DNA of 45,613 bases from Pseudomonadales bacterium (GTDB lineage Bacteria > Pseudomonadota > Gammaproteobacteria > Pseudomonadales > Azotimanducaceae): contig JANQOA010000334.1 of NCBI GenBank assembly GCA_028279305.1, positions 1 to 45,613 on the forward strand, written 5' to 3'. Under the pieces are notes generated by a model. It was given only the letters and a program-made list of their open reading frames with translations. It did no database searches and had not been told where the DNA came from. The position numbers and the translations under genes were made by a program. Shown here piece after piece: positions 14,097-44,227 of this stretch; the stretch's first letter is position 1; each line of letters starts with the position of its first letter.

Positions 14097-14891
14097 ATGC
14101 AGGATCTTTTTTCAGTGGCGGGCAAAGTGGTGGTGGTAACCGGCGGTTCGCGGGGTATCGGCGAGATGATTGCGGCGGGATTTCTCGCCAACGGCGCCAA
14201 GGTATATATCAGTTCGCGCAAGGCTGAGGCCTGCGACGCCACGGCGCAGCGGTTGCAGGCGGAGTTTGGCGGCGAGTGTGTGTCCCTTCCGGCGGACATG
14301 TCGACGCTGGCGGGGATTCAGGGATTCACCGACAGTTTTAAGGCCGCCGAATCGCGCCTGGACGTGCTGGTGAATAACGCCGGGGTCGCCTGGGGGGCGC
14401 CGCTGGAGGAATTCCCCGAAGTGGGATGGGACAAGGTGATGAATACCAACGTCAAGGGTCCGTTCTTCCTGACCCAGCAACTGTTGCCCCTGCTGGAGGC
14501 AGCCGCCAGCTTTGAAACCCCGGCGCGGGTAGTCAACGTAGGTTCTATCGACGGCATCAAAACACCGGTTTTTGACAACTTTTCCTACGGCCCTTCAAAA
14601 GCAGCCATCCACCACCTGACCCGGGTGCTGGCTGCGCACCTGATCAAACGTAACATCATTGTTAACGGCATTGCGCCGGGGCCATTCCCCACTTACATGC
14701 TGAGCACCGGCGTCGGCGGCGGCGGGGACACACACACGACAGATTGGGACGCGGTCGGCCGCGCTAACCCCCGCGGCCGGGTCGGCACCGCTGAAGATAT
14801 CGCCGGGCTGGCTATCTTCTTAAGCTCCAGGGCATCCGGCTTCACGGTGGGGGATGTCATCACCTGCGACGGCGGGTCGGTGGTTTCTTAA
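14097..14891 (+). CDS. Short-chain dehydrogenase/reductase
   Basis: A 264-residue SDR: TGGSRGIG near the N-terminus binds NAD(P), NNAG is the structural motif, and the catalytic Ser (VGSIDG), Tyr and Lys (YGPSK) are present. The C-terminal ITCDGGSVVS is typical of fatty-acyl and rhamnolipid-type ketoreductases. ATG at 14097 has GGAGA just upstream and is preferred over the ATG at 14022. The stretch coding GGDTHTTD contains one exact copy of the dispersed GGACACACRC motif (14723-14737). Substrate unknown. Confidence 0.9.
   Translation: MQDLFSVAGKVVVVTGGSRGIGEMIAAGFLANGAKVYISSRKAEACDATAQRLQAEFGGECVSLPADMSTLAGIQGFTDSFKAAESRLDVLVNNAGVAWGAPLEEFPEVGWDKVMNTNVKGPFFLTQQLLPLLEAAASFETPARVVNVGSIDGIKTPVFDNFSYGPSKAAIHHLTRVLAAHLIKRNIIVNGIAPGPFPTYMLSTGVGGGGDTHTTDWDAVGRANPRGRVGTAEDIAGLAIFLSSRASGFTVGDVITCDGGSVVS
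14723..14737 (+). repeat. Dispersed motif, in SDR gene (first copy in window)
   Basis: GGGGACACACACACG is the first exact-core copy in the window. It is translated in the SDR as GDTHT. The preceding 14.7 kb contain no exact core. Confidence 0.6.
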
Positions 14892-14907
14892 TTACACCGC
14901 CCGTCAT

Positions 14908-15714
14908 TCACCTGGCGTACATGGCAATCAAGCGCTGATCCCGCTGCCAGGCCGGATCAGCGGCAAATACGGACCCGCCGGTTCTGCCGCGCAGGTCCTG
15001 CACCAGCCCGGTCAAGTCTGCGAACGCTTGATGCGCCTTGGGCGAAGGCAACTCGTGCGCCTGCGCCGCCAGGCTCAAACCCCGCGCGATCTCGCGGGCA
15101 TAAGTTTCGATTCCGCCCAGCTTCTGCAGCGCAACCTGCAGGTAGGCGAGGAACGCACTATAGATGTACAAAGCCTCAAAACCGCTGAACGCTGCTACGT
15201 GCTCGGTGGGCAGTTGTTGAGCGGGGGACACCACAACCTCGTGCAGAGTAGCCTCACCCTGGCTCAGGTCCGGCAGCATGCCGGGTGAATCTTTGTGGGT
15301 GAGCGTGACGCCGCTCTGACCCTCCGCCACCAGGCAGTAGCGGGCGCGCTCACCGCGTCCTGCCTTAATCACCAGATCGGAGACCGAGCGGCTGGCCGCG
15401 ATCCAGGTTTTGTGACCGGACAGCAGCAGGGTGTCCTGGTGTTGCTGCCAGTCGACACCAGGCTGCAGGTGTGTGTCCTTTTCAGAGACTGCAAACGCCG
15501 CCCAGCCGCTGAACGATGTGCGCGGGAAGGTGCGGCGTATGGCAGCCTGGTAACCGGCAACAAACACCCAGGCCAGGCGGTCTGCGCAGAAGCCGCCGGC
15601 TACCGCCATTTCCAGAGGGTCCTGCAGACCTGCCGCATACGTTTGCCAGCGCTGCAGGAACTCGGCCTCATCCGCCGCGGCAGACAGTTCAAACGCCCAC
15701 TCGGGTGTATTCAC
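14908..15714 (-). CDS. Acyl-CoA-dehydrogenase-like protein (short)
   Basis: A 268-residue protein resembling acyl-CoA dehydrogenases: the middle beta domain is clear (AAFAVSEKDTHLQPGVDW, LSGHKTWIAASRSVSDLVI, SPGMLPDLSQGEATLHEVVV), followed by a short helical region. At 268 residues it is much shorter than the usual 380 or so, because the N-terminal helical part is reduced, so FAD binding and activity are uncertain. Its GTG start overlaps the TauD stop by four bases (GTGA), which indicates an operon with the dioxygenase. The segment KDTHLQPG is encoded by an exact copy of the dispersed motif (15463-15481). Confidence 0.75.
   Translation of the reverse strand: MNTPEWAFELSAAADEAEFLQRWQTYAAGLQDPLEMAVAGGFCADRLAWVFVAGYQAAIRRTFPRTSFSGWAAFAVSEKDTHLQPGVDWQQHQDTLLLSGHKTWIAASRSVSDLVIKAGRGERARYCLVAEGQSGVTLTHKDSPGMLPDLSQGEATLHEVVVSPAQQLPTEHVAAFSGFEALYIYSAFLAYLQVALQKLGGIETYAREIARGLSLAAQAHELPSPKAHQAFADLTGLVQDLRGRTGGSVFAADPAWQRDQRLIAMYAR
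15463..15481 (-). repeat. Dispersed motif, in acyl-CoA-dehydrogenase-like gene
   Basis: CTGCAGGTGTGTGTCCTTT on the plus strand is a full-length match to the motif on the minus strand. It codes for DTHLQ in the sense of the gene. Confidence 0.7.
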
Positions 15715-16496: not shown

Positions 16497-16533
16497 ACCA
16501 CTCCCTCAGGCCTGTTTCGGCGTTTGCCGCGTT

Positions 16534-16595
16534 GGGGACACACGCCTGCAGATTCCCCCAAACGTTCGAACACCCGTTTGGGACACACGCCTGCA
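16534..16595 (+). repeat. Dispersed motif pair between tauD-like and Rieske genes
   Basis: Two direct copies, GGGGACACACGCCTGCAG (16534-16551) and GGGACACACGCCTGCA (16580-16595), lie in the divergent intergenic region. Between and overlapping them is an 8-bp inverted repeat, CCCAAACG (16557-16564) with CGTTTGGG (16575-16582). Confidence 0.85.
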
Positions 16596-16650: not shown

Positions 16651-18006
16651 ATGGCCGAATCCATGAAGCACATCGACCCGGACACCATGCCGAGATCTCC
16701 GGGCATTACTTATCAGCAGCTGCTGGATACGGACAGCAAACCGGTACCCGATGTTTTGCGTCTGCAGTCCCCTCGGGATTTGGGCACACACGACTACGCT
16801 GCAGAGCGCTACACCAGCAAAGAATGGCACGACAAAGAGGTCGCCCGGCTGTGGCGGCGCGTGTGGCAGATGGCCTGCCGGGAAGAAGATATCCCGCAGC
16901 CAGGTGACCACCACCGTTACGATATCGCAGGGATTTCATTTCTGATCGTCCGCGCAGGTGATGGCGCCATCAAGGCCTACCCCAACGCGTGTTTGCACCG
17001 CGGCCGGTTACTCAAAGAACACGACGGCCGGGCAAACGAGTTGCGTTGCCCGTTCCACGGATTCTGTTGGAACCTGGAGGGTGAGCTAGTTGACGTACCC
17101 GCCCGCTGGGATTTCCCCCAGATCATCACTTCGGAATTTTCTCTGCCGGCCATTCCCGTCGCCACATGGGGTGGATTTGTGTTCATCAACCCCGACCAGA
17201 AATGTGCACCGTTTGAAGATTTTATCGCTGACCTTGCCGATCAGTTTGATCGTTGGGATCTGTCCAAGTTATACAAACAGGTACATGTCGCGAAAATCAT
17301 GCCATGCAACTGGAAAATCGCCCAGGAAGCATTCTGCGAAGCGTATCATGTGAACGGCACCCATCCGCAGATTCTTAAATCCCTGGGTGACGTTAACAGC
17401 CAGGTCGACGTCTGGGATAACTGCGCCAGAGTAATAACACCCTCATACACCCCCAGCCCGTTGCTCGGCTACGAGGTGAGTGATGAAGATATGATGCGCT
17501 CGCTCATGGACATCCCTGAAGATCAACCGGTCCCAGAACTGCCTGACGGCACAAGTCCCCGTGCATGGAGCGCAATGAACACCCGGGAAATGCTGCGCCC
17601 GGACGCCGGCGACATCGTAGATGAATACTGTGATGCGGAGATGGTCGACAACCTCGATTACACGCTATTTCCGAACTTCCATCCCTGGGGTGCTTTCAAC
17701 CGAATTGTGTACCGCTTCCGCCCAAACGGCGACGACCATCGATCGTGCATATTCGAATGCATGATGCTGGCTCCCTTTCAAGGTGAACGGCCGCCTCCTG
17801 CTGAAGTTACCTGGCTGCAGGCGGACGAACCCTGGTCGTCTGCGCTTGGCTTCCTGGGCAAGGTCTTCGACCAGGATGCATTCAACATGCCGAAGGTGCA
17901 ACTCGGGCTGGAGTCCACTTACAAGCCAGGCATTACCCTTTCCGCTTACCAGGAAAGCAAAGTACGTTGGCTGCACCACCGGCTGGGAGAGTGGCTTGAT
18001 GACTAA
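16651..18006 (+). CDS. Rieske non-heme iron oxygenase, alpha subunit (second)
   Basis: A 451-residue oxygenase. Rieske ligands are C114-x-H116 (CLHRG, with Leu in place of the usual Pro) and C133-xx-H136 (CPFHG). The mononuclear iron site is in EAYHVNGTHPQ, with a later Asp in the VFDQDAFNMPK region. It shares the overall plan of the other two Rieske proteins here but is clearly more distant, and the N-terminal CPGPS segment is missing. AGGGAGG precedes the ATG at 16651, which is preferred over the ATG at 16627. The last eight bases overlap the small gene that follows. Substrate and reductase partner unknown. Confidence 0.93.
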   Translation: MAESMKHIDPDTMPRSPGITYQQLLDTDSKPVPDVLRLQSPRDLGTHDYAAERYTSKEWHDKEVARLWRRVWQMACREEDIPQPGDHHRYDIAGISFLIVRAGDGAIKAYPNACLHRGRLLKEHDGRANELRCPFHGFCWNLEGELVDVPARWDFPQIITSEFSLPAIPVATWGGFVFINPDQKCAPFEDFIADLADQFDRWDLSKLYKQVHVAKIMPCNWKIAQEAFCEAYHVNGTHPQILKSLGDVNSQVDVWDNCARVITPSYTPSPLLGYEVSDEDMMRSLMDIPEDQPVPELPDGTSPRAWSAMNTREMLRPDAGDIVDEYCDAEMVDNLDYTLFPNFHPWGAFNRIVYRFRPNGDDHRSCIFECMMLAPFQGERPPPAEVTWLQADEPWSSALGFLGKVFDQDAFNMPKVQLGLESTYKPGITLSAYQESKVRWLHHRLGEWLDD

Positions 18007-18265: not shown

Positions 18266-18281
18266 GATCTACCGTAGCCAA

Positions 18282-18848
18282 TCAGTCACGACGGCTGCAC
18301 CTGTTTGAGTCAATCATGCGCAGTCCGCCGGTTTCGATTTGATGCAGTTCCACTTCCACCTCACCGGGACTAATGTTTAAAAATCCAATAGTGCCGTGCC
18401 GGGTGGACTGATTGTTCGGAAGCGTTGGTGAACCGGGATTTACGTACAGTGTCCCGTCCACCTCATGCACTTCAGCCAGATGTGTGTGTCCGTAAACCAC
18501 CACATCGGGGTCCGCGTCACTGAACGCCTGGCGGGTCTTCTTCTGCAACCGCTCAATACCTGCACGGCGCGGCGTTGGAAACTTGTGCACCATTGCCACG
18601 CTCAAACCCGCCATTCGTCCAATCCAGACTTCAGCAAGTTTTGGGTGTACTACATTCAGATCACCGTTGCCCGTGCAGACAAACGTAGGCGCCAATTGCT
18701 CGAGTTCTTCTATCACGTCGACAACATGCAGATCTCCGGCATGAAGGATGCAGTCGACATCTGCAAAGGCATCATGCACTTGCGGCCAAAGCTCCGCGAT
18801 TGTACCTGGCATGTGTGTGTCAGCGATCAAACCAACGCGCATCTGCAT
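18282..18848 (-). CDS. YfcE/MJ0936-type metallophosphoesterase
   Basis: A 188-residue calcineurin-like phosphoesterase of the short YfcE/MJ0936 class. Metal-binding motifs are DTH (IADTHMPG), GDLH (HAGDLH), GNGD, H in VHK and GHTH (YGHTHLAEV), and NPGS near the end is also typical. Members hydrolyse phosphodiesters in vitro; the natural substrate is unclear. The start is MQMRVGLIADTH at 18848, or MRVG at 18842, since the frame upstream merely translates an intergenic motif copy. The codons for DTH and GHTH each fall in copies of the dispersed motif (18808-18823, 18477-18492). Confidence 0.88.
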   Translation of the reverse strand: MQMRVGLIADTHMPGTIAELWPQVHDAFADVDCILHAGDLHVVDVIEELEQLAPTFVCTGNGDLNVVHPKLAEVWIGRMAGLSVAMVHKFPTPRRAGIERLQKKTRQAFSDADPDVVVYGHTHLAEVHEVDGTLYVNPGSPTLPNNQSTRHGTIGFLNISPGEVEVELHQIETGGLRMIDSNRCSRRD

Positions 18849-18922: not shown

Positions 18923-18970
18923 AAGGGACACACGCCTGCAGCGTAACACCGATGAGGGACACACACTGTG
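18923..18970 (+). repeat. Dispersed motif pair upstream of the ydbH-like gene
   Basis: AGGGACACACGCCTGCAG (18924-18941) and AGGGACACACACTGTG (18955-18970) are direct copies 31 bp apart in the divergent intergenic region. The second ends about 55 bp before the ydbH-like start. Confidence 0.85.
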
Positions 18971-19024: not shown

Positions 19025-21316
19025 GTGCCCAATTTCCGCAGAAAAAAACGCTACCTGATAACAGCGAGCGCCATTATCATCGCCGCCGTTTCTTACGCTG
19101 CAATCCCCGTTGCGGTCAAAAATCTGGCCGAACACGCTGCTACTCCCTATGGCGTCGGGTTGGACATCGATATGTCCCACCCCGGGTGGGCTGAAACCCG
19201 CATCAATTTTGTCGAGCTCACCCACCCCGAATTCCGGGTGGTAGCCCGCGACATCAACGTCTCTTACACTTTTGCGGGCCTTGCCAGTTCCAGCGCCGAA
19301 TCCATCAAAGTGGTAGAACTTGCGCTGTATATCAACATTGCACCTACCGGCACTGAGCCCGAAACGATGAGTGGCACGTTCCCGGATTCGTTTGCACCCG
19401 TGTTTAGCTTCTTGCCTGCTAAACAGATCGAAATCCAGCGTTTAACCGTTGAAGCAGTTGATCCTGAGGTGTACGTAGTCGGTACCGCCAAACTTTCAGC
19501 CCAAAGCGCAGTTGTGGATTTGACCGCTGCCGCCCCTGGCCCGTGGCAAGGCTGGTCCACCCGGTTGCGGCTGAATGATGACAACAGTTTCGACTTTAGG
19601 CTCAACTCGACCCGCTTAGTGGGACCTCCTCCGGTGAGTATTCGAGGACAAATCGCAGAGCAACAACTTGGCGCTCAAGTGTGTGTCCATATCGAAAGTG
19701 AAGATCTGCTTCCAGCACAGAATTATTTTCCGCAGCTCCCAGACCAGGTGAAGCTCGCAAGCACAGGTGGCATAACGCTGCCCTGGCCTTTACCAGAAGA
19801 TGCAAGTCTCGACCCCCAATCCATATGGCCTTTTCTCTCCGCAGATCTCGACAGCCTCTTATTGACCTATGCCAGCAAAGGTCCGGACGTGGAGGCAAGA
19901 TTCAGTTCTGACAATCTGCTCCTCAGCTCAGGCCTTTTAACGGCTACGCTTAGTGGAGAAATTGAACACACACGCGGTGATCTGAAAATCCGCACCCAGC
20001 TACCAGCAAATACCCCGCTCACTTATGACAATGGGGTACTACACCTGGGCACCCAGGCTCGTCCGCTGCTACAAACTGTTCGTAGCAACGATGCAGAAAT
20101 TGAGATGCGCAGTTCCCTGACATTGAATCTGAACGCTACCCCGGAACTGGCTATAGCGGCAGAACTTGGCGCGCAAAGCGGCAAAGAACTGGGCTTGCAG
20201 GGAGTGATCAACGGCAACTTCCAAGCCTTGGATCTGCAGTCTGCGGCGCTGCAAGGTAGTTTGCTCCTCGACGCTTCAGCAAGTATCGGCACCTACTCCA
20301 TCCCCCACAAGTTGGCAGCCAACCTGACGTATTCAAGGGACACACACCTGCAGATCGATGGCAGCTTTGCCGCCGAACCCATTCGTCTCCCGTTCCAAGT
20401 GACACACAATCTGGACACTGCTGAGGGCGAACTTGTGTCGTCAGGGACACACGCCTGGCATGGCGATCTAATTGCCTCCGTGTTACCAGGCTGGGATGGA
20501 GATATAGAACTCACAGAGGGGAAGATGAGCACCTTGGCAACTATTGCATGGGGAGACTCAGTTTCAACCGATCTAAGCCTTCAACTATCGGGCGCCAACG
20601 CAAGCTTTGACGAATATGTGTTGAACGGCGTTGAACTGCAGACACGGTTTACCAACCACGACGCAACTAATCCGGAAACATGGTCCCTGGCTCCCACGAG
20701 CATAAAAGCCGCTGCGCTCAACGTCGGATTCGAGATCAGCAATATCTCGGCGGAACTGTCATCTACTACCGACGGGTTCAACATTCACGACGCCCGCGCG
20801 GACCTGCTCGGCGGCACTATTCTGTTAGAGGAGGCCAGCTATCAATGGCAAGAGGCGAGTTCTTTTGATGTACAGCTGCAAGACATTGATCTCGCTAAAC
20901 TGCTTGCGTTGGAAGGAGACAAAGTGAGTGGAAGCGGCACTTTATCCGGCAGCTTACCGATCACTGCGAACGCATCGGGCATTTCAGTAACACAAGGATT
21001 TGTTGCGGCTGCCGCTCCGGGCGGAAAGTTGTCCCTATCACCCGATCTGACTCAGCCGACGGGCCGTGCAGAACTGGATTTTGCACTCAAGGCTCTGGAA
21101 GACTTCACATACACAGACTTGCGTGCTGATATCAATTACGGTGCCAACGGCGATTTGAAGCTGGCCGTTAAACTGGCTGGCACTAATCCGGGCTTCGAGA
21201 ACGGAAGGCCCGTGCACTACAACCTGACCGTACAGGAGAACATTCCCGTTTTGCTTCAGTCCCTTCGCATACAACAAGGTTTAACCGACAAAATCGAAAG
21301 GGCGGTCACAAAGTAG
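19025..21316 (+). CDS. ydbH: YdbH-like intermembrane phospholipid transport protein
   Basis: A 763-residue protein with one N-terminal membrane helix (about 9-28) and a long beta-strand-rich, low-Cys remainder, matching the AsmA-like YdbH family (TamB, YhdP and YdbH in E. coli). These proteins form a hydrophobic groove across the periplasm that carries phospholipids to the outer membrane. The next two genes match YnbE and YdbL, the same order as in E. coli, which supports the call. The start is a GTG. Base composition is less G+C-rich than the first 16 kb. Two exact motif copies lie in the coding region (20335-20353, 20442-20460), one of them coding DTHLQ, and others on the opposite strand (19676). 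Confidence 0.88.
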   Translation: MPNFRRKKRYLITASAIIIAAVSYAAIPVAVKNLAEHAATPYGVGLDIDMSHPGWAETRINFVELTHPEFRVVARDINVSYTFAGLASSSAESIKVVELALYINIAPTGTEPETMSGTFPDSFAPVFSFLPAKQIEIQRLTVEAVDPEVYVVGTAKLSAQSAVVDLTAAAPGPWQGWSTRLRLNDDNSFDFRLNSTRLVGPPPVSIRGQIAEQQLGAQVCVHIESEDLLPAQNYFPQLPDQVKLASTGGITLPWPLPEDASLDPQSIWPFLSADLDSLLLTYASKGPDVEARFSSDNLLLSSGLLTATLSGEIEHTRGDLKIRTQLPANTPLTYDNGVLHLGTQARPLLQTVRSNDAEIEMRSSLTLNLNATPELAIAAELGAQSGKELGLQGVINGNFQALDLQSAALQGSLLLDASASIGTYSIPHKLAANLTYSRDTHLQIDGSFAAEPIRLPFQVTHNLDTAEGELVSSGTHAWHGDLIASVLPGWDGDIELTEGKMSTLATIAWGDSVSTDLSLQLSGANASFDEYVLNGVELQTRFTNHDATNPETWSLAPTSIKAAALNVGFEISNISAELSSTTDGFNIHDARADLLGGTILLEEASYQWQEASSFDVQLQDIDLAKLLALEGDKVSGSGTLSGSLPITANASGISVTQGFVAAAAPGGKLSLSPDLTQPTGRAELDFALKALEDFTYTDLRADINYGANGDLKLAVKLAGTNPGFENGRPVHYNLTVQENIPVLLQSLRIQQGLTDKIERAVTK
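20335..20353 (+). repeat. Dispersed motif, in ydbH-like gene
   Basis: AAGGGACACACACCTGCAG is a near-ideal copy, translated as RDTHLQ. A second, AGGGACACACGCCTGGCA, lies at 20443-20460 and is translated as GTHAW. Confidence 0.8.
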
Positions 21317-22316: not shown

Positions 22317-24152
22317 ATGTGTGGAATTGTGGGTTACGTCGGCAGCAAGAACGCCATGCCGGTGCTATTGGAGGGCCTCAGCCGTCTGGAATACCGCGGC
22401 TACGACTCCGCTGGCCTGGCACTTCAACGGAAAGAAAAGATCGAAGTATTCAAGAAGGCCGGCCGGCTGGACGCTCTGCGGACACTATTGCCTAAGCGCA
22501 ATGCCGCAACTACCGGGATTGGACACACACGCTGGGCCACACACGGCGCACCTACAGACCTGAACGCCCATCCTCACACCGACAGCAGCGGGTGTGTGTC
22601 CATCGCACACAACGGAATTATCGAAAATGCAGGTGAGTTACGCGAATACCTGACCACCCGCGGCCATTCTTTCGCCTCGGACACAGACTCGGAGGTCCTG
22701 GCTGCGCTCATTGCTGAGGAATACGGCAACGCGGGGTCGCTGCTGGCGGCCGTAAAGGCGTCGCTGCGGCGGGTCGCCGGCACATACGGACTATTGGCAA
22801 TGCATCGTGACGAGCCAGCCAACATCATTACAGCACGCAACGGCAGCCCGGTTGTGGTGGGTGTAGGAGACAACGAAATGCTTGTCGCTTCCGATGTGGC
22901 GGCCCTGGTGCCGTTCACCCGGCAAGTGCTGTATCTGGAGGACGGGGAAATAGCCAGCCTGTCAGCAAAGCACCATGAAATACACAGTCTTGAGGCTTCC
23001 CGGCCGGGTGTCAGCCAACGCACCCCATCGGTGGTGGACTTCGACGTCACGTTAGCTTCAAAAGGTCATCATGATCACTTTACGCTGAAGGAAATCAGCG
23101 AACAGCCGGAAGCTCTGGAACGCGTACTGCGCGGGCGCATTGACACACGCTTTAAGACCGCTCACTTCGGCGGTTTGAATCTCGAACCCAAGGAACTGCT
23201 GTCTTTCAAGCGCATCAAGATATTAGGCTGCGGAAGCGCATTCATAGCCGGTTCCATCGGCGCAGCCATGATCGAACGTACCACGCGGCTGCCCGCGGAT
23301 GCCGAATCGGCTGCTGAGTTCCGTTACCGCAACCCCATCATCGAACACGACACCCTTTATATGGCCGTCAGCCAGTCGGGCGAAACCTTTGACACGCTTA
23401 CCGCGGTTCAGGAAATCCAGCGCAAGGGCGGCACGGTCCTGGGTGTGGTAAATGTTGTAGGCAGCAGTATCGCCCGGCAATGTGGTGCCGGCATTTATCT
23501 GCACGCCGGTCCTGAAGTGGCGGTGGTGTCCACCAAGACGTTTGCCTGCACATTATGTGCATTTGCGCTGTTTGCCCTGTACATGGGCCGCATGCGGGAT
23601 ATGTCACCCGCTGAGGGTGAGGCCATCATCAACGCTCTGACGCAACTGCCGGAACAAATGCGTGCGCAAATCGCCAGCCCGGACCCGCTCCGTAGGCTGG
23701 CACAAAAGTACGCTCACTACCAACGAGCGTATTTTGTGGGCAGGTGCGAAGGGTTTGGGTTGGCCCGGGAAGGCGCCCTTAAACTCAAGGAAATATCGTA
23801 CATCCACGCTGAAGCTTACCCTGCTTCGGAATTAAAGCACGGCCCGCTTGCGTTGATTGACGAGCAAACACCGACTTTTGTCATCATTCCGCAGGATGAT
23901 CTGCTGACCAAAAACCTCTCCACCATCGCGGAGATCAAAACCCGCCAGGGACCGGTAGTGGCCGTCTCCCAGGCCGATATGAGTGATAAGCCTGATGTTG
24001 ACGACTGCATTGCAGTCCCCAAAGGCCATCCCCTCACCGACCCGATACTACTGCTGCCGCCACTGCAATTTCTTGCCTATTACGCCGCGCTGGAACGCGA
24101 ATGCGACGTCGATCAGCCACGCAACCTCGCGAAAAGTGTCACCGTTGAATAG
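22317..24152 (+). CDS. glmS: Glutamine-fructose-6-phosphate aminotransferase
   Basis: 611 residues, normal length. It converts fructose 6-phosphate and glutamine to glucosamine 6-phosphate, the first step of UDP-GlcNAc, peptidoglycan and lipid A synthesis. The N-terminal domain starts MCGIVGYVG with the Cys nucleophile, followed by GIGHTRWATHG. The two SIS sugar-isomerase domains cover about 280-420 and 450-600, with GCGSAFIAG and SQSGETFDT, and the C-terminus KSVTVE is typical. The codons for GHTR and GCVS both contain exact motif copies (22519-22536 plus, 22588-22603 minus). No upstream ribozyme is possible in the six-base spacer. Confidence 0.97.
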   Translation: MCGIVGYVGSKNAMPVLLEGLSRLEYRGYDSAGLALQRKEKIEVFKKAGRLDALRTLLPKRNAATTGIGHTRWATHGAPTDLNAHPHTDSSGCVSIAHNGIIENAGELREYLTTRGHSFASDTDSEVLAALIAEEYGNAGSLLAAVKASLRRVAGTYGLLAMHRDEPANIITARNGSPVVVGVGDNEMLVASDVAALVPFTRQVLYLEDGEIASLSAKHHEIHSLEASRPGVSQRTPSVVDFDVTLASKGHHDHFTLKEISEQPEALERVLRGRIDTRFKTAHFGGLNLEPKELLSFKRIKILGCGSAFIAGSIGAAMIERTTRLPADAESAAEFRYRNPIIEHDTLYMAVSQSGETFDTLTAVQEIQRKGGTVLGVVNVVGSSIARQCGAGIYLHAGPEVAVVSTKTFACTLCAFALFALYMGRMRDMSPAEGEAIINALTQLPEQMRAQIASPDPLRRLAQKYAHYQRAYFVGRCEGFGLAREGALKLKEISYIHAEAYPASELKHGPLALIDEQTPTFVIIPQDDLLTKNLSTIAEIKTRQGPVVAVSQADMSDKPDVDDCIAVPKGHPLTDPILLLPPLQFLAYYAALERECDVDQPRNLAKSVTVE

Positions 24153-24202
24153 ACCAAGGACACACACCCGCAGGTGGAATAGACCAAGGACACACGCCCG
24201 CA
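24147..24202 (+). repeat. Dispersed motif pair, 30-bp direct repeat, after glmS
   Basis: AAGGACACACACCCGCAGGT (24156-24175) and AAGGACACACGCCCGCA (24186-24202) are each preceded by GAATAGACC, making an almost perfect tandem repeat of period 30 between the convergent glmS and VOC genes. Confidence 0.9.
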
Positions 24203-24787: not shown

Positions 24788-27277
24788 ATGTCTAATCCCT
24801 ACCCGGGCTTGCGCTCCAAACACAACCAAGCTGCGGCCATCGTCGACCAACTGACCCTGGCTGAAAAAGCCAAATTATGTTCCGGCAAAAATTTTTGGCA
24901 CACCGAAGGTATCCCCCGCCTCAATCTGCCCAGCGTTATGGTGACTGACGGCCCCCACGGCTTGCGCAAGCAAAACGCCGCAGCAGATCACGTCGGGCTT
25001 AACAAGAGTGTGCCGTCTACATGTTTCCCGACAGCGTGCGCACTGGCAGCCAGCTGGGACACAGACTTGATGGAAGAGGTGGGTGTTGCTCTGGGCGAAC
25101 AGTGTGTCGCCGAAGACGTAGCCGTGCTGTTAGGCCCCGGCTTGAACATCAAACGGCATCCCCTCTGCGGCCGAAATTTTGAGTATTTTTCTGAAGACCC
25201 GTTGCTGAGCGGGAAAATGGCGGCAGCCCTTGTTCGTGGCGTTCAATCTCAAGGCGTAGGCACCAGCGTCAAACACTTTGCCGTCAACAACCAGGAATTC
25301 GCGCGTATGTACGCGGACGTGATTGTTGATCCGCGCACTATCCGGGAAATCTACCTGAGAGGATTTGAGATTGTTGTCAAAGAAGCCCAGCCGTGGACGG
25401 TAATGTGCGCCTACAACAGGGTTAACGGCACCTACTGCAGCGAACACGACTGGCTGTTGAATCAGGTGTTACGACACGAATGGGGATTCGAGGGATTGGT
25501 CGTGACCGATTGGGGCGCCACCAATGATCGGGTTGCCGGCGTCGCCAGCGGTCTTGATCTGGAGATGCCCGGCAGCGGAGGCGTAAATGACGAACTCGTG
25601 CGCAGGGCTGTTAAAAACAAGACGCTGGCCGAGGACGCGCTCGACCAAGCCGTTCTTCGCAATGTAAGCCTGGCATTGCTGGGCCAGGATGTGGCTGACA
25701 AAAACCAGACCCTGGACCACCAGGCGCACCACAACCTTGCAAGAAGGGTTGCCGCTGAATCAACTGTGTTATTAAAAAACGACCCCTCTCTGCTGCCCTT
25801 GCCGTTCGGTGAATCCGTTGCGGTGATAGGCGCCTTTGCCAAAAACCCGCGGTACCAGGGCACCGGCAGCTCCCAGGTTAACCCGACACGTCTGGACAAT
25901 GCCTGGCAAGCCATCGCGGAGTATTCAGATTCGATCCTCTATGCGCCGGGTTATGACCCTAAGTCCAGTGAACTGAATGAATCTCTAATCGATGACGCCG
26001 TCAGCGCCGCCCTCGAAGCAGACACCGCCATCGTATTTATTGGTCTGCCGAACATATACGAATCTGAGGGTTTCGACCGCATCCATATGGACCTGCCGGA
26101 GCAACATAATCGGCTTGTGCGGGCCGTGAGCAGCGCAAACAAAAACACGATTGTGGTACTGGAGAATGGGGCACCGGTGACCATGCCCTGGATAGATGGG
26201 GTCGGCAGCGTCATCGAAACATATCTTTCCGGTCAAGCCGGGGGCGCAGCCGTTGCTGACGTAATTTTCGGCACATCAAATCCCAGCGGCAAACTCGCAG
26301 AAACCTTTCCCTGGGCGTTAAACGACGTTCCTTCGAATAGATGGTTTCCGGGCAAAAACCGGCAGGTCCACTACAGGGAAGGTTTAAACGTCGGTTATCG
26401 GTATTTCGACTCGGCAAATGCCCCTGTACTGTTTCCATTTGGCCACGGCTTAAGCTACACCAGTTTTGAGTTTTCTGATCTGGATATTGTGTTAGATCCT
26501 TCACCCGACCGCACTCGGGTGACACTCACTTGCAACTTAACGAATACCGGCCAGATAGAAGGCGCGGAGGTCGTGCAGGTGTATGTCCATGACGTTGAGT
26601 CTTCTGTTTACCGTCCGGAACAGGAACTGGCAGCATTTGAGAAGGTGCTGCTTGCTCCCGGTGAAACAAAGTGTGTGTCCTTTACCTGCGATGAAACGGC
26701 TTTTAATTTCTACGATACCGGGGTGCAAGCGTGGGTTGTTGAGCCCGGCCAGTTCGAGATTCGCGTGGGTGCGTCCAGCCGGGACATACGCTTGCGGGAA
26801 ATCTTGGAAATACCCGCTGCCGGCGACCTTGTTGACCAGGAAAGCACCCAAACTGCAGCAGTGAGTACCGAGGCAGTTCGCGCGATGCCGGGTGATTCCC
26901 CGAACCGCGGCATCGCCGAAAACGAAGCGGAATTTGAACGGATGTTGACGCGGCCGGTACCGGCAAGGGAATATCCACGCCCGTTCCACATCAATTCATC
27001 CGTAGGAGAGTTGCAGCACTCTTGGCTGGGTGAAAGAGTTAGAAATTTCTTTGTTAATCAGTTTCTGGGCTCCATGGGCGGCTCATCCAGTAATGCCACC
27101 TTAAACAAAATGTTTGAAGAAATGGCCAACCATATGCCTCTTAGGGGACTGGTACTGTTCAGCCGGGGAAAGGTGACACACACGCACGTGCGCATGATTG
27201 TTGCCGCGCTGAACCACCAGTTTGGGCAGGTCGTTCGGATTTGGGCGCAACATAAGATCGATCTCAAAGAAAAATAG
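24788..27277 (+). CDS. GH3 beta-glucosidase-like glycoside hydrolase
   Basis: An 829-residue cytoplasmic-looking (no signal peptide) family 3 glycoside hydrolase. The N-terminal barrel has K162-H163 (SVKHF) and the nucleophile D241 in VVTDWG. The second domain carries GLPNIYESEGFDR with a likely acid/base Glu. A fibronectin-III-like domain follows at about 570-660 (TLTCNLTNTGQIEGAEVVQVYV). A C-terminal extension of about 140 residues (690-829) has no counterpart I recognise and ends in a helical, partly hydrophobic segment. It probably cleaves beta-glucosides in the cytoplasm after import. One exact motif copy (26668-26685, minus) and one variant (27173-27188) are in the gene. Confidence 0.92.
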   Translation: MSNPYPGLRSKHNQAAAIVDQLTLAEKAKLCSGKNFWHTEGIPRLNLPSVMVTDGPHGLRKQNAAADHVGLNKSVPSTCFPTACALAASWDTDLMEEVGVALGEQCVAEDVAVLLGPGLNIKRHPLCGRNFEYFSEDPLLSGKMAAALVRGVQSQGVGTSVKHFAVNNQEFARMYADVIVDPRTIREIYLRGFEIVVKEAQPWTVMCAYNRVNGTYCSEHDWLLNQVLRHEWGFEGLVVTDWGATNDRVAGVASGLDLEMPGSGGVNDELVRRAVKNKTLAEDALDQAVLRNVSLALLGQDVADKNQTLDHQAHHNLARRVAAESTVLLKNDPSLLPLPFGESVAVIGAFAKNPRYQGTGSSQVNPTRLDNAWQAIAEYSDSILYAPGYDPKSSELNESLIDDAVSAALEADTAIVFIGLPNIYESEGFDRIHMDLPEQHNRLVRAVSSANKNTIVVLENGAPVTMPWIDGVGSVIETYLSGQAGGAAVADVIFGTSNPSGKLAETFPWALNDVPSNRWFPGKNRQVHYREGLNVGYRYFDSANAPVLFPFGHGLSYTSFEFSDLDIVLDPSPDRTRVTLTCNLTNTGQIEGAEVVQVYVHDVESSVYRPEQELAAFEKVLLAPGETKCVSFTCDETAFNFYDTGVQAWVVEPGQFEIRVGASSRDIRLREILEIPAAGDLVDQESTQTAAVSTEAVRAMPGDSPNRGIAENEAEFERMLTRPVPAREYPRPFHINSSVGELQHSWLGERVRNFFVNQFLGSMGGSSSNATLNKMFEEMANHMPLRGLVLFSRGKVTHTHVRMIVAALNHQFGQVVRIWAQHKIDLKEK

Positions 27278-27384: not shown

Positions 27385-28305
27385 ATGGCGACACCGCGCA
27401 AAAAGCTAGTAGATTCAGAACACGCTCTGTTCTATCACCTTATTTCCAGGTGCGTACGAGGCAGTTATCTGTGCGGCAAGGATTTGCGTACGGGAAAGAA
27501 CTACAACCACCGCAAACGTTGGATTGTCAGTAGAATTAAGCGCCTGGCTCGCAGTTTTGCAATCGAAGTGCACGCTTACGCTGTGATGAGCAACCACTTT
27601 CACCTGGTCGTTCACTACGATCCCAAAGAGGCGGATCGATGGTCTGATAGCGAAGTGGTTGAGCGTTGGTTTGATGTCTTTCCGAAGCGTAGCCGAGATG
27701 GAAAAATCGATCACATTCGGTCCGCCATAGCCAAGGCGGAGTGCCTCAAAAACCCGTCACAGATTCAGCATTTTCGTAAAACGCTGGGTTGTATGTCGAT
27801 GTTTATGAAACATCTGAAGCAGCCTGTCGCGCTGCGCGCAAACCAGGAAGATGGGTGTTCAGGTCACTTTTTCGAACAACGCTTTTACTCTGGGGCGCTG
27901 GTGAGCGAAAAAGCGGTTATTGCAGCAATGGCCTACGTCGACTTAAACCCGGTCCGCGCCAAAATCGCCCGCTCAATTGAAGAATGCAATAACACTTCGA
28001 TCGCAGAGCGCCTGCAACATCTCAAACACACAAAACAAAAGATCCGCAGAGCAATAGAACCAATTGTTAGCGGCAACAAAGTACCCAGGCAACTTGGTAT
28101 TTCCACGGGTCGTTATATTGACTTACTCAAGCACATATCCCTGGTTACGACAGGATCAGCGCCAGCGCCCATACACAGGGAGTCACTTTGGGTCAGCGCG
28201 ATTCAGAGTCTCAGCAAACGTCAACGGGCGTACGGCACAGCAGCAGACATTGAAGTCTGGCGCAAACGGCAAGGCTTCCGACGCAAAGAAGCTCCCCTGC
28301 CATAA
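27385..28305 (+). CDS. RAYT-like Y1 (HUH) transposase
   Basis: A 306-residue single-strand transposase of the Y1 type, related to REP-associated tyrosine transposases and longer than IS200 TnpA. The HUH metal motif is H71-F-H73 in VMSNHFHLVV, and FFEQRFYSGALVSEKAVIAAMAYVDLNPVRA is the conserved C-terminal block of this subgroup. A canonical catalytic Tyr in the following helix is not obvious (MSMFMKHLKQ), as in several such relatives. No flanking inverted repeats or target duplications are visible, so it is probably a domesticated single-copy gene. ATG at 27385 is preferred to the TTG at 27370. Copies of the dispersed motif lie about 200 bp on either side in opposite orientation. Confidence 0.85.
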   Translation: MATPRKKLVDSEHALFYHLISRCVRGSYLCGKDLRTGKNYNHRKRWIVSRIKRLARSFAIEVHAYAVMSNHFHLVVHYDPKEADRWSDSEVVERWFDVFPKRSRDGKIDHIRSAIAKAECLKNPSQIQHFRKTLGCMSMFMKHLKQPVALRANQEDGCSGHFFEQRFYSGALVSEKAVIAAMAYVDLNPVRAKIARSIEECNNTSIAERLQHLKHTKQKIRRAIEPIVSGNKVPRQLGISTGRYIDLLKHISLVTTGSAPAPIHRESLWVSAIQSLSKRQRAYGTAADIEVWRKRQGFRRKEAPLP

Positions 28306-30740: not shown

Positions 30741-30778
30741 CGGTGACACACACTTAGCAACCGTGACACACACTTCAC
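30741..30778 (+). repeat. Dispersed motif variants between convergent genes
   Basis: GGTGACACACACTTAGCA and CGTGACACACACTTCACG are direct copies 20 bp apart in the 72-bp gap between the oxidoreductase and rdgC ends. Both have GTGAC in place of GGGAC. Confidence 0.75.
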
Positions 30779-34221: not shown

Positions 34222-34335
34222 CAGGGACACACACTTGACCGAGAAGCAGGCGGGGCTTGTTTGCCAGTCTGTGCCGTTTACGAATTTGCAAGCGTGTGTC
34301 CCTTACCTCCTTATCTGCAAGTGTGCGTCCCTTAC
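34222..34335. repeat. Three dispersed motif copies between GST and MAPEG genes
   Basis: CAGGGACACACACTTGACC (34222-34240, plus strand), TTGCAAGCGTGTGTCCCTTA (34286-34305, minus) and CTGCAAGTGTGCGTCCCTTA (34315-34334, minus). The last two are in tandem with period 29. The first and second face each other, 64 bp apart. Confidence 0.88.
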
Positions 34336-36119: not shown

Positions 36120-37493
36120 TTGAGCAAACACGATACGCCGGGTGAGGCCCGATGCCCCGGCCCCAGCACACGCGAGATTATCCTGGCAGACGGTGACAAT
36201 GCGCCCGACGCCCTGGTGGAGGAGGCTTACACTTTTCTGGGTGACGAAGACATCCCATTCAGCCGTTATACCTCGCAGGAGATGTATCAACAGGAAATTG
36301 ACCACATGTGGTCGCGCACCTGGCAATGGGCTTGCCGGGAGGAGCACGTGCCTAACCCGGGCGACTACTACACTTACGACGTGGGTCCCTACTCTGCCCT
36401 GATTATTCGCGACTCGGACGGCAAGCTGTGCGCCTATATCAACTCGTGTCCCCACCGCGGCATGCAATTCTGCAACGCCGGTGAACAGGGCCGCGGCAAG
36501 CAATTTATACGCTGCCCTTTCCACGGCATGAGCTGGCACCTGGACGGCAGCTTAAGAGAGATCCCCTGCCGCTGGGATTTCCCTCACATCAAGGAAGATA
36601 ACTTCAACCTCACCGGGATTCCCGTCGGCACCTGGGGAGGGTTTGTGTTCGTGAATTTCGACCCGCAGGCCGGGCCGCTGCAGGATTACCTGGAGGTATT
36701 GCCCCGGCACTTCGCCCACTGGCCGTTGCAGGACCGCTACGTGGCGCTGCACATGCACAAGCTGTTGCCCGGTAACTGGAAAATGTGCCTGGAGGCATTC
36801 CTCGAGGCTTACCACGTGATGGCAACACATCCCGAAGGGCTGCGTACCGCCGGCGACGCCAACGCCCAATACGATATTTTTGGCGATAATGTGTCGCGTT
36901 TTGTGCACACGGTAGGGTACCCGAGCCCGCACCTGCCCAAACCGCTGACGCAGCCTGAGTTGTTTGCCGCCCTGGGACATGCCGCGGAAGATTTACCCGA
37001 AGGCGCCGGCGCCCGCCAACAGCATGCTGACCTTCAACGCTCCGCCCTGGGGGCGCAGATGGGTGTTGACCTGAGCGGGTACAGCAACTCCGAAATGCTG
37101 GACTCCATCGAGTATTACCTGTTTCCGAACGCCTGCTTCTTTCCGGGTATCAGCATTCCTCTGATCTACCGTTTCCGCCCGGTGGACGTTGACCACTGCG
37201 TGCATGAAATCCTCATGCTCAAACCCAAACCCGCGGCAGGCCAGGTACCACCCCCTGCTGAAGTCATCAACCTCGGCATTGAAGATTCTTACACCGCGGT
37301 CAGCGAGTTTGCCGCGACGGGCCTGGCCTACGTGCTGGATCAGGACACAGAGAACTTTCACCGCCAGCGGGCCGGGATCAAAGCTGCGGTGAAAACAGGT
37401 CAAACTCTGGGTAATTACCAGGAGGCGCGCATCCGTAACCTGCATCGAACCTTGGACAAGTACCTGAGCCATTCACAGTCCCCGGGGGCCTGA
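36120..37493 (+). CDS. Rieske non-heme iron oxygenase, alpha subunit (third)
   Basis: A 457-residue oxygenase closely matching the one at 3516-4892 over its whole length, including CPGPS, GDEDI-SRYTS, WQWACREEH and IPCRWDFPHIK. Rieske ligands are C110-x-H112 and C132-xx-H135, and the iron site is EAYHVMATHPE. The start TTG at 36120 is chosen to match the length of the relative; GGAG at 36114-36117 lies very close and a better site is not seen. The longer frame from 35934 overlaps the EthD gene and its motif copy. Two bases separate its stop from the aminotransferase start, so the two are likely coexpressed. Substrate unknown. Confidence 0.9.
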   Translation: MSKHDTPGEARCPGPSTREIILADGDNAPDALVEEAYTFLGDEDIPFSRYTSQEMYQQEIDHMWSRTWQWACREEHVPNPGDYYTYDVGPYSALIIRDSDGKLCAYINSCPHRGMQFCNAGEQGRGKQFIRCPFHGMSWHLDGSLREIPCRWDFPHIKEDNFNLTGIPVGTWGGFVFVNFDPQAGPLQDYLEVLPRHFAHWPLQDRYVALHMHKLLPGNWKMCLEAFLEAYHVMATHPEGLRTAGDANAQYDIFGDNVSRFVHTVGYPSPHLPKPLTQPELFAALGHAAEDLPEGAGARQQHADLQRSALGAQMGVDLSGYSNSEMLDSIEYYLFPNACFFPGISIPLIYRFRPVDVDHCVHEILMLKPKPAAGQVPPPAEVINLGIEDSYTAVSEFAATGLAYVLDQDTENFHRQRAGIKAAVKTGQTLGNYQEARIRNLHRTLDKYLSHSQSPGA

Positions 37494-37495
37494 TC

Positions 37496-39540: not shown

Positions 39541-40418
39541 TCCGTATAGTTTTGCTAATGGCGCCCATCTGTCTGGCCGGCACATCCGCACTGCAGGCGG
39601 CTGAAAACCCCATACCCCAGTGGGCGCACCACATTGTCACTGAAGTGGACCTCGCTTATGGCGACCACGAACGGCAAACACTGGACACACACCTGCAGGG
39701 TCAGCGGGTCGGTGAGCCGGATTATTTCGTGGCGGACGCACAAGCGCGCCCAACCCTGATGTGGATCCATGGCGGCGGGTGGCTGGAGGGTGACAAAGCC
39801 CGTGATCTATCCCGCATCATGCCGTTCCTGCAGCGGGGCTGGAATGTCTATTCCATCAACTACCGGCAGGGGCCGGAAACCGCGCCCCAGGCTGTTGACG
39901 ATGCCTTGTGCGCGTTTCGCTACGTTGTGCAGCACACCGAAGAGCGCGGCCATGATCCGCGCCGGATTGTGGTTGGCGGCGCAAGTTCCGGGGGGCACCT
40001 GGCATTGGTGGTCGCGCTCCTGAACACCCAGGGTGAACATCCCTGCAAGGCGGCTTTTCCACCCCGTGCCGCGGTTAACTGGTTCGGCATCACCGATATT
40101 GAGCTGCTGGATGAATTTTTGCAGGACACACGCCCGCAAAGTAACTACGCACGCGCGTGGGCAGGCAGCGCAGCCGCCATTGTTGAAGTGTCCGACGCCT
40201 ATTCCCCGATGTATCTGATCTCTGACAACGCACCGCCAATAGTCTCGGTTCACGGCACCGAAGACTCGGTGGTGCCGTTTGACCAGGGTGAATCCTTTCA
40301 TTCCAGCCTTAATACGCCGAACGAACTGGTGATCTTGCGCGGCAATCACGGCGGCTTTTCCGACCATCAATACCAACAGGCATGGGACCAGATCTTCACC
40401 TTCCTTGACGGCCACTGA
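39537..40418 (+). CDS. Secreted alpha/beta-hydrolase (HSL-type esterase)
   Basis: A 293-residue esterase with a signal peptide (MIRIVLLMAPICLAGTSALQA). HGGGW is the oxyanion motif of the hormone-sensitive-lipase class, GASSGG the nucleophile elbow, with Asp in VHGTEDSVVPF and His in RGNHGGF. It starts inside the CysZ-like stop (ATGA), ending a four-gene coupled run that begins with the Rieske oxygenase. Two exact motif copies are in it, at 39681-39701 (LDTHLQG) and 40122-40141 (QDTRPQ). Confidence 0.9.
   Translation: MIRIVLLMAPICLAGTSALQAAENPIPQWAHHIVTEVDLAYGDHERQTLDTHLQGQRVGEPDYFVADAQARPTLMWIHGGGWLEGDKARDLSRIMPFLQRGWNVYSINYRQGPETAPQAVDDALCAFRYVVQHTEERGHDPRRIVVGGASSGGHLALVVALLNTQGEHPCKAAFPPRAAVNWFGITDIELLDEFLQDTRPQSNYARAWAGSAAAIVEVSDAYSPMYLISDNAPPIVSVHGTEDSVVPFDQGESFHSSLNTPNELVILRGNHGGFSDHQYQQAWDQIFTFLDGH
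39681..39701 (+). repeat. Dispersed motif, in esterase gene
   Basis: TGGACACACACCTGCAGGGT (39682-39701) is nearly identical to the consensus and codes for LDTHLQG. The second copy in the gene lies at 40122-40141. Confidence 0.8.
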
Positions 40419-40442
40419 TCACTGCCTCTGTAAGTACCCTGC

Positions 40443-40532
40443 AAGGGACACACACCTGCAGGTAGTACCTGCAAGGGACACACGCCTGGCAGGTTGCCGC
40501 GCACGCGGAGCTGTAAAGGACACACACCTGCA
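40443..40532 (+). repeat. Three dispersed motif copies between esterase and copper-oxygenase genes
   Basis: Copies at 40443-40463 and 40473-40494 are 30 bp apart; the third is at 40515-40532. The first reads AGGGACACACACCTGCAGGT and is the best full-length example. CCTGCA before and TGCAGG after the core form an inverted repeat round copies one and two (ACCTGC ... GCAGGT), so single-strand hairpins are possible. Confidence 0.92.
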
Positions 40533-42556: not shown

Positions 42557-42732
42557 AACCAGGCTGGGAAAGACAAGAAACAGAGCAATATCGAATTGGG
42601 ATTTACTCACAATTTCGATACTCTTAAACCGATATTTTCCGCTACCTTTAACAGTAACCGCGGCGAGTTACCGCGACACAGAACCGGAAAAAGAAGAGCA
42701 AAAAGCAGCCCCTGAACAACATAGGATCTCCC

Positions 42733-44118
42733 GTGGCCTCCAACGCTAAATACATAAATACCTACAATGATTGGTACGCCCAAGCGATCAACGAAGACAG
42801 CCGCACCGGCGCGGACCTGTGGCGCGGCCGTGACGCCAGCACCCTCTATGACTATCGTGTTATCCGCAGGCGTTACGACGAACTCAAAGGCATTCGGCTT
42901 TCGGGAGACATCAAGGCGCTGCTGTTCTATATGCACGAGGGCTTTCACGGCAATATGGCCGGCATGGGCTCACCCGCGCTTTATTCGCGCGCAAAATCCG
43001 GTACCAAACAACTCATCAGCGACTACATCAGTGAAATGGTCGCCTCTCTGGAACTGCTTGCAAACGCGAAAAAGAGTGAAATCAGCAAGCATGAAAAAAT
43101 AGAATTTTTCCGCCGTTCCGCCAGCTGCTTTGGCCGCTCGGCACTGATGCTCAGCGGTGCGGGGTCCTTGGGGCCATTCCATATCGGGGTGATTAAGGCG
43201 CTGGCGGAACAGGACCTGTTGCCCCCAATTATAAGCGGTTCCAGCGCCGGCTCGCTGGTGGCTGCGGTGGTTGGGACACACCCGCGTGAAGATCTGCTGG
43301 CCATGCTGAACGAAGAAACGCTGGTCGCTTTGACCACCCAGAACGACGACCAGGCGGCGGGTTCACAAATGCGCAGGAAAGATCTGGTGGATCTGCTGGA
43401 GAGGCTGATTCCGGACCTGACTTTTGAAGAGGCTTTGCACAAGACCGGCCACTACATCAACATTTCCGTAGCGCCAACCGCCATCAACCAACGCTCCAGG
43501 CTGCTTAACGCGGTGACGTCTCCGAACGCCTGTATACGTGAAGCGGTCATGGCCTCCTGCGCAATTCCGGGTATTTTCCCGGCGGTGACACTGGCGGCAA
43601 AAAACGCCCAGGGAGAGCGCAAACCTTACATCGCATCCAGAAAATGGGTGGACGGGTCCGTCAGCGACGATTTACCGGCACGGCGCCTGATGCGCCTGTA
43701 TGGGGTAAACCATTTTATCAGCAGCCAGGCGAATCCCGCGGTGTTATGGATGCTGCAGGATCCCACCCAGACCAATGCGTTATCGCAAATTGCCGGTGTA
43801 TACCAAGCTGCCGCCAGAGATATGTCAAAAGCCATTTATCCTTTTGCCATGAATCTGGTGCGCAATGTCTATCCCATCAACATTCTCACCCGTACCTGGT
43901 TTGGCCTCATCACCCAGGAATACACGGCAGACATCAATGTCCTGCCGCGCCAGCGCTGGTTCAACCCGGCCAAATTGATTGCGCGCCTATCCAGTAAGGA
44001 AACTCGGCAGCTTATTGAAGACGGCGAGCGCGCCACCTGGCCGAAAATCGAAATGATCCGCAACTGTACCGCGGTCAGCCGCACCATCGACGCCGCCCTG
44101 GCACGGCTGGAGGCCTGA
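42733..44118 (+). CDS. Patatin-like phospholipase with DUF3336-type N-terminus
   Basis: A 461-residue lipase. The first 130 residues resemble DUF3336 found before patatin domains (YDYRVIRRRYDELKGIR, GFHGNMAGMGSPALY). The patatin domain has SGAGSLGPFHIG, the nucleophile S171 in GSSAGS and catalytic D307 in WVDGS. It probably hydrolyses acylglycerols or phospholipids, perhaps in the cytoplasm or attached to membrane. The start is GTG at 42733. Confidence 0.9.
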   Translation: MASNAKYINTYNDWYAQAINEDSRTGADLWRGRDASTLYDYRVIRRRYDELKGIRLSGDIKALLFYMHEGFHGNMAGMGSPALYSRAKSGTKQLISDYISEMVASLELLANAKKSEISKHEKIEFFRRSASCFGRSALMLSGAGSLGPFHIGVIKALAEQDLLPPIISGSSAGSLVAAVVGTHPREDLLAMLNEETLVALTTQNDDQAAGSQMRRKDLVDLLERLIPDLTFEEALHKTGHYINISVAPTAINQRSRLLNAVTSPNACIREAVMASCAIPGIFPAVTLAAKNAQGERKPYIASRKWVDGSVSDDLPARRLMRLYGVNHFISSQANPAVLWMLQDPTQTNALSQIAGVYQAAARDMSKAIYPFAMNLVRNVYPINILTRTWFGLITQEYTADINVLPRQRWFNPAKLIARLSSKETRQLIEDGERATWPKIEMIRNCTAVSRTIDAALARLEA

Positions 44119-44144
44119 CCGCACCCGGGGAGACCGTCCGCAAC

Positions 44145-44227
44145 AACAAGCGTGTGTCCCGCGCAGCGTCCTGCAGGTGTGTGTCCCGTGCAATGTGTCC
44201 CGCGTGCATGTGTGTGTCCCGTGCAGC
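44145..44227 (-). repeat. Four dispersed motif copies after the patatin gene
   Basis: GCGTGTGTCCC (44150-44160), CTGCAGGTGTGTGTCCCGTG (44171-44190), a shortened ATGTGTCCC (44193-44201) and GCATGTGTGTGTCCCGTGCA (44206-44225), all minus orientation. The dense cluster fills the 184-bp gap before the next gene. Confidence 0.9.

Follow-up and report, generated by a model that had tools for sequence, protein, structure and literature searches.

A local cloud of short oriented motifs around a Y1/HUH tyrosine transposase gene in a Pseudomonadales genome, and its recurrence around related transposases

Bacterial Y1 transposases have been described together with short repeats that lie near their genes. 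For instance, palindromes of the repetitive extragenic palindromic (REP) type were found accumulated near the genes of REP-associated tyrosine transposases (RAYTs) in four genomes, the regions concerned measuring at most two hundred kilobases in the three genomes from marine gammaproteobacteria, whereas the set of Thauera is partly proximal, and it was proposed that REPs are produced in the vicinity of the RAYT after its acquisition (Nunvar 2010, PMC2817692). The Marinomonas case, with the REPtrons Ma and Mb, was explained as a recent arrival (PMC8266576). Here, we describe a 30-kb cloud of a short motif, GGACACACRC, surrounding a RAYT-like transposase gene in a Pseudomonadales bacterium (family Azotimanducaceae). 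The window, that is the whole stretch of DNA analysed, spans positions 1 to 45,613 of contig JANQOA010000334.1, and its source genome (GCA_028279305.1, hereafter G000) is a fragmented assembly of 5,697,157 bases in 399 contigs. Judged from sequence comparisons, the motif is probably the recognition sequence of this transposase, which would act mainly near its own gene. The association between motif and transposase is strong, and it is from this association that the function would follow.

REPtrons resemble the window family in that a Y1 transposase gene is flanked by inverted repeat copies with further repeats concentrated nearby. REPs were among the parallels drawn in an earlier sequence-only reading of this DNA and are the closest of them, since a REP-associated-type transposase lies near the middle of the cloud and its relatives have matching motif clouds. 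However, the window set is not a standard REP family. Published REPs are palindromic, form hairpins with a GTAG head, and are found mainly outside genes and as a rule across the whole genome, whereas the window copies gave no arm-pairing signal (62 of 100 shuffles equally good), lie mostly in open reading frames (ORFs) and, where they sit in genes and could be aligned, arose by substitution; the GTAG/GTGG foot tetranucleotide is absent from their consensus and from that of Hahella, discussed below. A second group, the TIRYT transposases (probably TnpA_Y1 subclass 2.1), is flanked by inverted non-REP repeats in TIRtrons, and its terminal inverted repeat (TIR) word GGGGWSAS includes GGGGACAC, which overlaps the present motif, of general form RGACANNC (Di Nocera 2013, PMC3733652). 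These TIRs are long ends, some of which form moderately abundant repeat families; unlike for the present family, the available part of that description contains neither a local cloud inside genes nor a conservation test. Finally, TnpA_Y1 subclass 2.3, from Chromatiales and Alteromonadales, is characterized by YVDLNP, TS and NHYH, a median HuH-Y spacing of 110 and a median length of 325; as it is reported without a REP-like sequence (PMC6006769), its substrate had been open.

The transposase gene and the two motif copies closest to it are the following.

27385-28305, plus strand: gene of a Y1/HUH tyrosine transposase, RAYT-like and resembling TnpA_Y1 subclass 2.3, near the middle of the motif cloud.
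27174-27183, plus strand: left inward motif TGACACACAC, in the end of the GH3 gene and 195 bp from the transposase ORF; relatives have inward copies at such distances.
28486-28495, minus strand: right inward motif, in the start of the molybdopterin oxidoreductase ORF and 189 bp from the transposase ORF.

The predicted protein resembles subclass 2.3 in having YVDLNP, TS, a HuH-Y spacing of 113 and a length of 306 amino acids from an ATG or 311 from an upstream TTG. It differs in carrying NHFH instead of NHYH, and in that its relatives are flanked by inward RGACANNCR, whereas PMC6006769 reports no REP-like sequence for the subclass. It matches Pfam Y1_Tnp (7e-6) and the NCBIfam REP-associated tyrosine transposase model (2e-11, but at 44 bits against a cut-off of 80). 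DLNP is invariant, with YVDLNP and TS, in a nine-row transposase alignment; among 62 full-length relatives YVDLNP is present in 61 and the HuH-Y spacing has a median of 112 (range 105-122). No solved relative was found by sequence at E 0.01. An AlphaFold model (pLDDT 93.5) had a single match in the PDB with E below 0.001, namely 4er8 (5e-5), a structure of the E. coli REP-associated transposase in complex with a REP hairpin; the TM-scores were modest, 0.32/0.56.

The cloud is local. As the sequence-only reading had stated, a dense GGACACACRC family covers 30 kb on both strands: the window holds 31 exact copies, compared with a mean of 0.40 and a maximum of 2 in dinucleotide shuffles, and 30 of them fall inside 14723-44227, the remaining one being at 14276-14285. 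The 19-mer with up to three mismatches occurs 17 times (0.02 expected). The 46 copies of the shorter core GACACAC extend from about 14.28 to 44.22 kb, and the first 14 kb have none. Across G000, where the reversed word served as control, GGACACACRC has 42 copies, 31 on the window contig and 11 elsewhere, and the reversed word 25. As 31 of the 42 copies are in the window and the remainder is below the reversed control, the motif is confined to these 30 kb; the genome-wide count that had been suggested as a check thus gave a strong local excess and no genome-wide enrichment. In the same way, 10 of the 11 genomic copies of GGACACACRCCTGCA lie in the window (control 0).

Copies are scattered over genes and intergenic gaps and occur in either orientation, which agrees with the earlier view that this is neither a promoter nor a terminator pattern. 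Within 15.5 kb of the transposase, 43 GACACAC copies comprise 30 in coding DNA (28.0 kb) and 13 in non-coding DNA (3.9 kb), against 3 and 0 for the reversed word; this split, like the others below, rests on mechanical ORF masks in which some of the masked genes may be false. Most copies have only about 10-20 bp in common, longer flanks being common to neighbours such as 24158/24188. A single recent duplication, which the same reading had named as the case that would undo it, was rejected as the source of the copies, since they sit in unrelated genes and gaps and mostly have these 10-20 bp in common. No known RNA family or tRNA was found in the window.

In G000, two more transposases of the family (C53:332-1276 and C236:17048-17590) are each flanked by inverted GCCACACAC, a variant word. 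GGACACACRCYTGCA was present in 2 of 58 genomes searched, G000 included, and GGACACACRCYTG in 11 of 40 genus genomes, with one copy in nine of them, four in G027 and twenty in G000. Clouds were also found in the same-genus genome G019, where GACACAC occurs 23, 9, 11 and 12 times per 40 kb around four transposase homologues, mostly within about 7 kb of the transposase, with 0, 2 and 2 copies in three 20-kb controls. Same-genus G026 has no transposase match at E 0.001. Its glmS-like, GH3 and RdgC orthologues are close together, GH3 adjoins RdgC with nothing resembling the transposase or the molybdopterin gene in between, and the syntenic 25 kb with shared genes contain 1 GACACAC (reversed control 3). 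A chimeric or misbinned contig is not supported, given this clustering of orthologues of the central genes, yet the estimated contamination of the assembly is 6.56%.

The inverted ends recur in relatives. A scan of public genomes gave 320 transposase relatives, of which the best 80 were kept (79 loci); its seed words contained NHF or LKQP, and the presence of NHFH among its loci is therefore largely by construction. Clade A was made of the top 43 loci by rank plus L218, moved there for its motif of clade-A type (44 loci), and clade B of the remaining 35, a division made after the motif words at the loci had been seen; near-copies such as L168/L169 and loci of the same genome were counted although they are not independent. 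Within 500 bp on each side of the 44 clade-A transposases, 132 copies point inward and none outward (89/0 in the first 250 bp and 43/0 in the next). Beyond 500 bp and as far as 10 kb, the density drops to 0.13-0.42 per kb, while the reversed word gives 0.00-0.05 per kb (0.19 in the first 250 bp). In total, 208 copies are inward and 64 outward, and 42 of the 44 loci have at least one. At clade-B loci the words keep this shape but differ in their middle letters (GGACACCCA, GGACAGGCA, GACAGTCA and others). Of the copies in the first 250 bp there, 62 point inward and 2 outward; over all distances the figures are 219/124, and 32 of the 35 loci have at least one copy. Non-cognate words are rare, with 9 CC-type and 6 GG-type copies in clade-A flanks and 25 CA-type copies in clade-B flanks. 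The excess extends into coding DNA: at 1-10 kb in clade A, coding density is 0.165 per kb (control 0.026) and non-coding density 0.787 (control 0.080), and a second comparison gave 0.265 versus 0.044 per kb in coding DNA at this distance.

The recurrence is family-wide. In a separate sample taken from the class of the window, 57 of 369 genomes had a transposase match, and the effect may therefore bear on many genomes. Thirty of these loci were taken, one of which had no readable ORF; inward RGACANNCR was found at 29 of the 29 readable loci, on both sides at 20, with totals of 112 inward and 15 outward copies. NHYH is present in 21 of these 29 relatives, with a like flanking motif.

Motif and transposase also vary together. 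On a quick tree of 91 proteins (22 rows untyped, and near-copies favouring clustering), the NN letters of the 69 typed rows require 15 changes compared with a mean of 33.5 after shuffling, and none of 200 shuffles was as low. The NN letters broadly follow the transposase tree, with clustering of the CC, CA and GT types. No hairpin signal was found in 8 of 11 motif sets; it was present in L169 and L175 (0 of 100 shuffles as good) and in L232 (3 of 100). In the GG-type sets L234 and L238, the word (g)TGGACAGG includes GTGG through overlap.

The copies inside genes that could be aligned arose by base substitution. Among 24 genes of the window, 6 have an orthologue in G026, and 3 of these bear motif sites; one of nine sites (18926) was dropped, as it lies in an unaligned N-terminal extension, and the eight others all align without gaps. 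Four of them differ by synonymous changes only, with identical amino acids (18484, 18815, 22521 and 25102), and four include replacements. In Hahella, all four in-gene sites with a spanning outgroup alignment are also ungapped. It is from these 12 of 12 alignable sites, ungapped against relatives without a transposase there, that the origin by substitution follows. The other motif sites singled out in the window, within and between genes, are listed below.

16536-16590, plus strand: intergenic motif pair, 45 bp apart.
18484-18491, minus strand: motif within the codons of the conserved GHTH in the metallophosphoesterase gene, ungapped against G026, where the core differs by one synonymous base.
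18926-18966, plus strand: motif pair, 31 bp apart, upstream of the probable metallophosphoesterase start.
20338-20347, plus strand: copy in the YdbH-like gene, identical with its flanks over 20 bp to the copy at 40442-40461 (repeat family D1).
22521-22530, plus strand, and 22592-22601, minus strand: two motifs in the glmS-like gene, both aligning without gaps to its G026 orthologue.
24158-24197, plus strand: intergenic motif pair, 30 bp apart, directly past the glmS-like gene.
26671-26680, minus strand: motif in the GH3 gene, ungapped against G026.
29091-29113, plus strand: TGACACACACTTGCAGG in the molybdopterin oxidoreductase gene.
30744-30773, plus strand: intergenic TGACACACACTT motif pair, 20 bp apart.
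34225-34332: cluster of three motifs, at 34225 (plus), 34292 (minus) and 34314-34332 (minus, variant).
39683-39692, plus strand: motif in the esterase gene.
40446-40527, plus strand: intergenic array of three motifs, the first being the exact 19-mer.
44150-44219, minus strand: intergenic array of three motifs at the right edge of the cloud.

Hahella provides a clean case. The record of Hahella sp. HN01 carries no metagenome-assembly mark, and the window transposase matches this genome once; with the Hahella transposase itself as query, two further weak partial matches were found elsewhere in the genome. Around this gene (62.5-63.3 kb), 53 of the 55 copies of RGACACCCA in 140 kb fall at 31-86 kb, and three 20-kb controls contain 0, 1 and 0. 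Three other Hahella genomes have the transposase and 38-56 motif copies in the matching 100 kb, transposase and cloud being syntenic in the four species. Two outgroup Hahella have no motif in 60 kb each of partly orthologous stretches and no transposase match on those contigs; both genomes have matches elsewhere. The transposase shows a nonsynonymous to synonymous rate ratio (dN/dS) of 0.084-0.094 at a synonymous divergence (dS) of 0.36-1.01. In contrast to REPs as published, the Hahella copies are conserved over long times and 20 of 53 lie in ORFs, and here too there is no arm-pairing signal (99 of 100 shuffles equally good).

Hahella motif copies, including those in genes, are conserved at the DNA level. 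In-gene 9-mers are intact in 18/18, 16/18 and 14/17 cases across the three comparisons, versus 47%, 55% and 35% of random genic 9-mers, and intergenic 9-mers in 26/30, 29/33 and 17/22, versus 43%, 45% and 32%. Third codon positions are conserved at 153 of 159 sites within the motif (96%) compared with 1375 of 1740 beside it (79%). Over 12 ordered species pairs, a pooling in which comparisons share ancestry, the motif was kept in 480 of 531 aligned comparisons (63 more were unaligned); 32 others differ by substitution, 25 of them by a single base, and 19 by gaps. An intergenic Hahella array (L249, G061:C45 42352-42968) contains nine motif copies in longer repeated units, and its single copies vary among the four species by substitution or gap. 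Intergenic arrays with such units, as at 42.3-43.0 kb in Hahella, suggest that duplication took place there.

From these observations, we infer direct recognition of the motif, a preference for acting in cis, and a reason for the retention of copies, as follows. A putative single-strand endonuclease would recognize a word of RGACANNC type. The two inward copies about 190 bp on either side of the gene would be the ends of the transposase unit, and the others the cloud around it, as the protein would act mostly near its own gene. Within genes, new copies would be made by point mutation, and in intergenic arrays probably by small duplications; binding or nicking would be the reason why copies close to the transposase gene are retained. 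The explanation of retention that we favour, although it is somewhat doubtful, is a linkage drive: a nick at a motif would initiate the copying or the transfer of single strands that include the transposase gene and the DNA around it, and motif-bearing alleles would spread with the gene.

Several observations weigh against recognition by the neighbouring transposase as a complete account. In the window itself, motif orientation is mixed (17 inward and 14 outward over all distances), and of the five GACACAC copies within 1 kb of the transposase, two face the gene, at 195 and 189 bp, while three face away from it, at 442, 691 and 787 bp. The GG type taken alone is directionless in clade B, with 49 inward versus 39 outward copies, and neither the GG nor the GC type is clustered on the transposase tree. 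No cloud was found around the C53 and C236 transposases of G000 in the 20 and 29 kb read, one of the genes being at a contig edge, so that a cloud is not obligatory. Conversely, G027 has GGACACAC arrays on C193 (L086 1146-4911), C210 (L087 12391-12883) and C56 (L085 6075-7078), and no transposase homologue was found by search on these three contigs; the arrays might be left over from a transposase that has been lost, or belong to one encoded on a different contig. In addition, conservation was measured in Hahella alone, the window having no close relative that shares the locus, and the contamination figure given above counts here as well, although it is tempered by the G026 orthologues.

DNA uptake sequences (DUS/USS) are short oriented words that occur at near 1 per kb in and between genes throughout a genome. 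The window-type motif is like them in being a short oriented word at about 1 per kb that is kept as a word through substitutions, and unlike them in being limited to tens of kilobases around one gene, with those 11 outside copies in 5.7 Mb. The cloud may, tentatively, be viewed as a local and gene-centred counterpart of uptake sequences, in which a cis-acting HUH nuclease makes the surrounding tens of kilobases, host genes included, its substrate; point mutation would create the sites, and selection or linkage drive would maintain them while the transposase stays. If this is true, a neighbouring transposase imposes a DNA-level constraint on ordinary host genes. The conserved in-gene copies represent a constraint on host coding DNA not obviously explained by protein function or host regulation. 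Moreover, RGACANNC provides a concrete and testable candidate substrate for subclass 2.3 Y1 transposases, with NN differing between clades. The subclass 2.3-like motif class, the substitution origin in genes and the conservation appear to be new as far as our literature searches show; in a search by the motif letters, the matches listed look unrelated by title.

Only slightly less probable than linkage drive is binding to the benefit of the host, a possibility that we likewise consider somewhat doubtful. ParB at parS and MatP at matS are analogues in which bound sites organize chromosome domains; likewise, a domesticated transposase could bind the array and organize or protect the local chromosome domain, the host maintaining the sites. 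Such a role would fit the finding that transposase and motif are both conserved, within genes as well as outside them, and the syntenic position in four Hahella species. However, no neighbour gene is recurrent at the loci (the largest family occurs at 6 of 80), single genomes have clouds at several unrelated sites, and sibling transposases lack one. As a genome-wide system, the chromosome-organizing motif named as a parallel in the sequence-only reading, like its DNA-uptake parallel, does not hold, since the motif is at chance level outside the 30 kb.

It is improbable that the copies are REP-like debris, that is decaying leftovers of recent activity in which the transposase copied short mobile repeats that landed nearby. 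Published cases of palindromic REPs accumulated near RAYTs (PMC2817692) and of recent arrival in Marinomonas (PMC8266576) provide precedents, the intergenic arrays of the window and Hahella resemble repeat arrays, and 3 of the 11 motif sets have paired arms. Yet the alignable in-gene sites are ungapped without exception, arm pairing is absent from the window and Hahella sets, and the Hahella cloud is old (dS up to 1.0) with a motif that is nevertheless more conserved than its surroundings; the ungapped sites and the Hahella conservation count against debris as a complete explanation. The conserved in-gene copies thus argue against the recent-arrival account of transposase-proximal repeats, at least in Hahella.

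A genome-wide signature, for example an uptake sequence, on a contig from a different organism in the bin is very improbable: uptake sequences have a similar density, about 1 per kb both inside genes and outside them, and the assembly has the contamination mentioned, but the left 14 kb of the same contig have no copy, synteny links the central part of the window to a same-genus genome, the clouds of G019 and Hahella HN01 are local, which contradicts it as a general account, and whole-genome counts rule it out. Finally, sites of a pathway-specific transcription regulator are hardly credible, as some copies are intergenic near gene starts but the majority lie inside ORFs, the genes belong to unrelated families and the cloud surrounds different genes in other species; its return around transposases whose neighbours are unrelated contradicts this reading.

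The other genes of the region are ordinary by Pfam. They comprise SDR, TauD, Rieske, metallophosphoesterase, YdbH-like, glmS-like SIS/glutaminase, glyoxalase and GH3 genes, and genes for molybdopterin oxidoreductase, RdgC, Nramp, GST, MAPEG, enoyl-CoA hydratase, class III aminotransferase, esterase and patatin. The glmS-like gene of the window (22317-24152) is 42% identical to a second one in G000 (C41:7332-9161), and close matches to the window type were found only in G026 (74%) and G010 (66%) among 40 genus genomes searched. The Rieske oxygenase genes at 17044-17366 and 36510-36832 are about 71-80% identical at the DNA level, in blocks 19,466 bp apart, and form an old paralogous pair.

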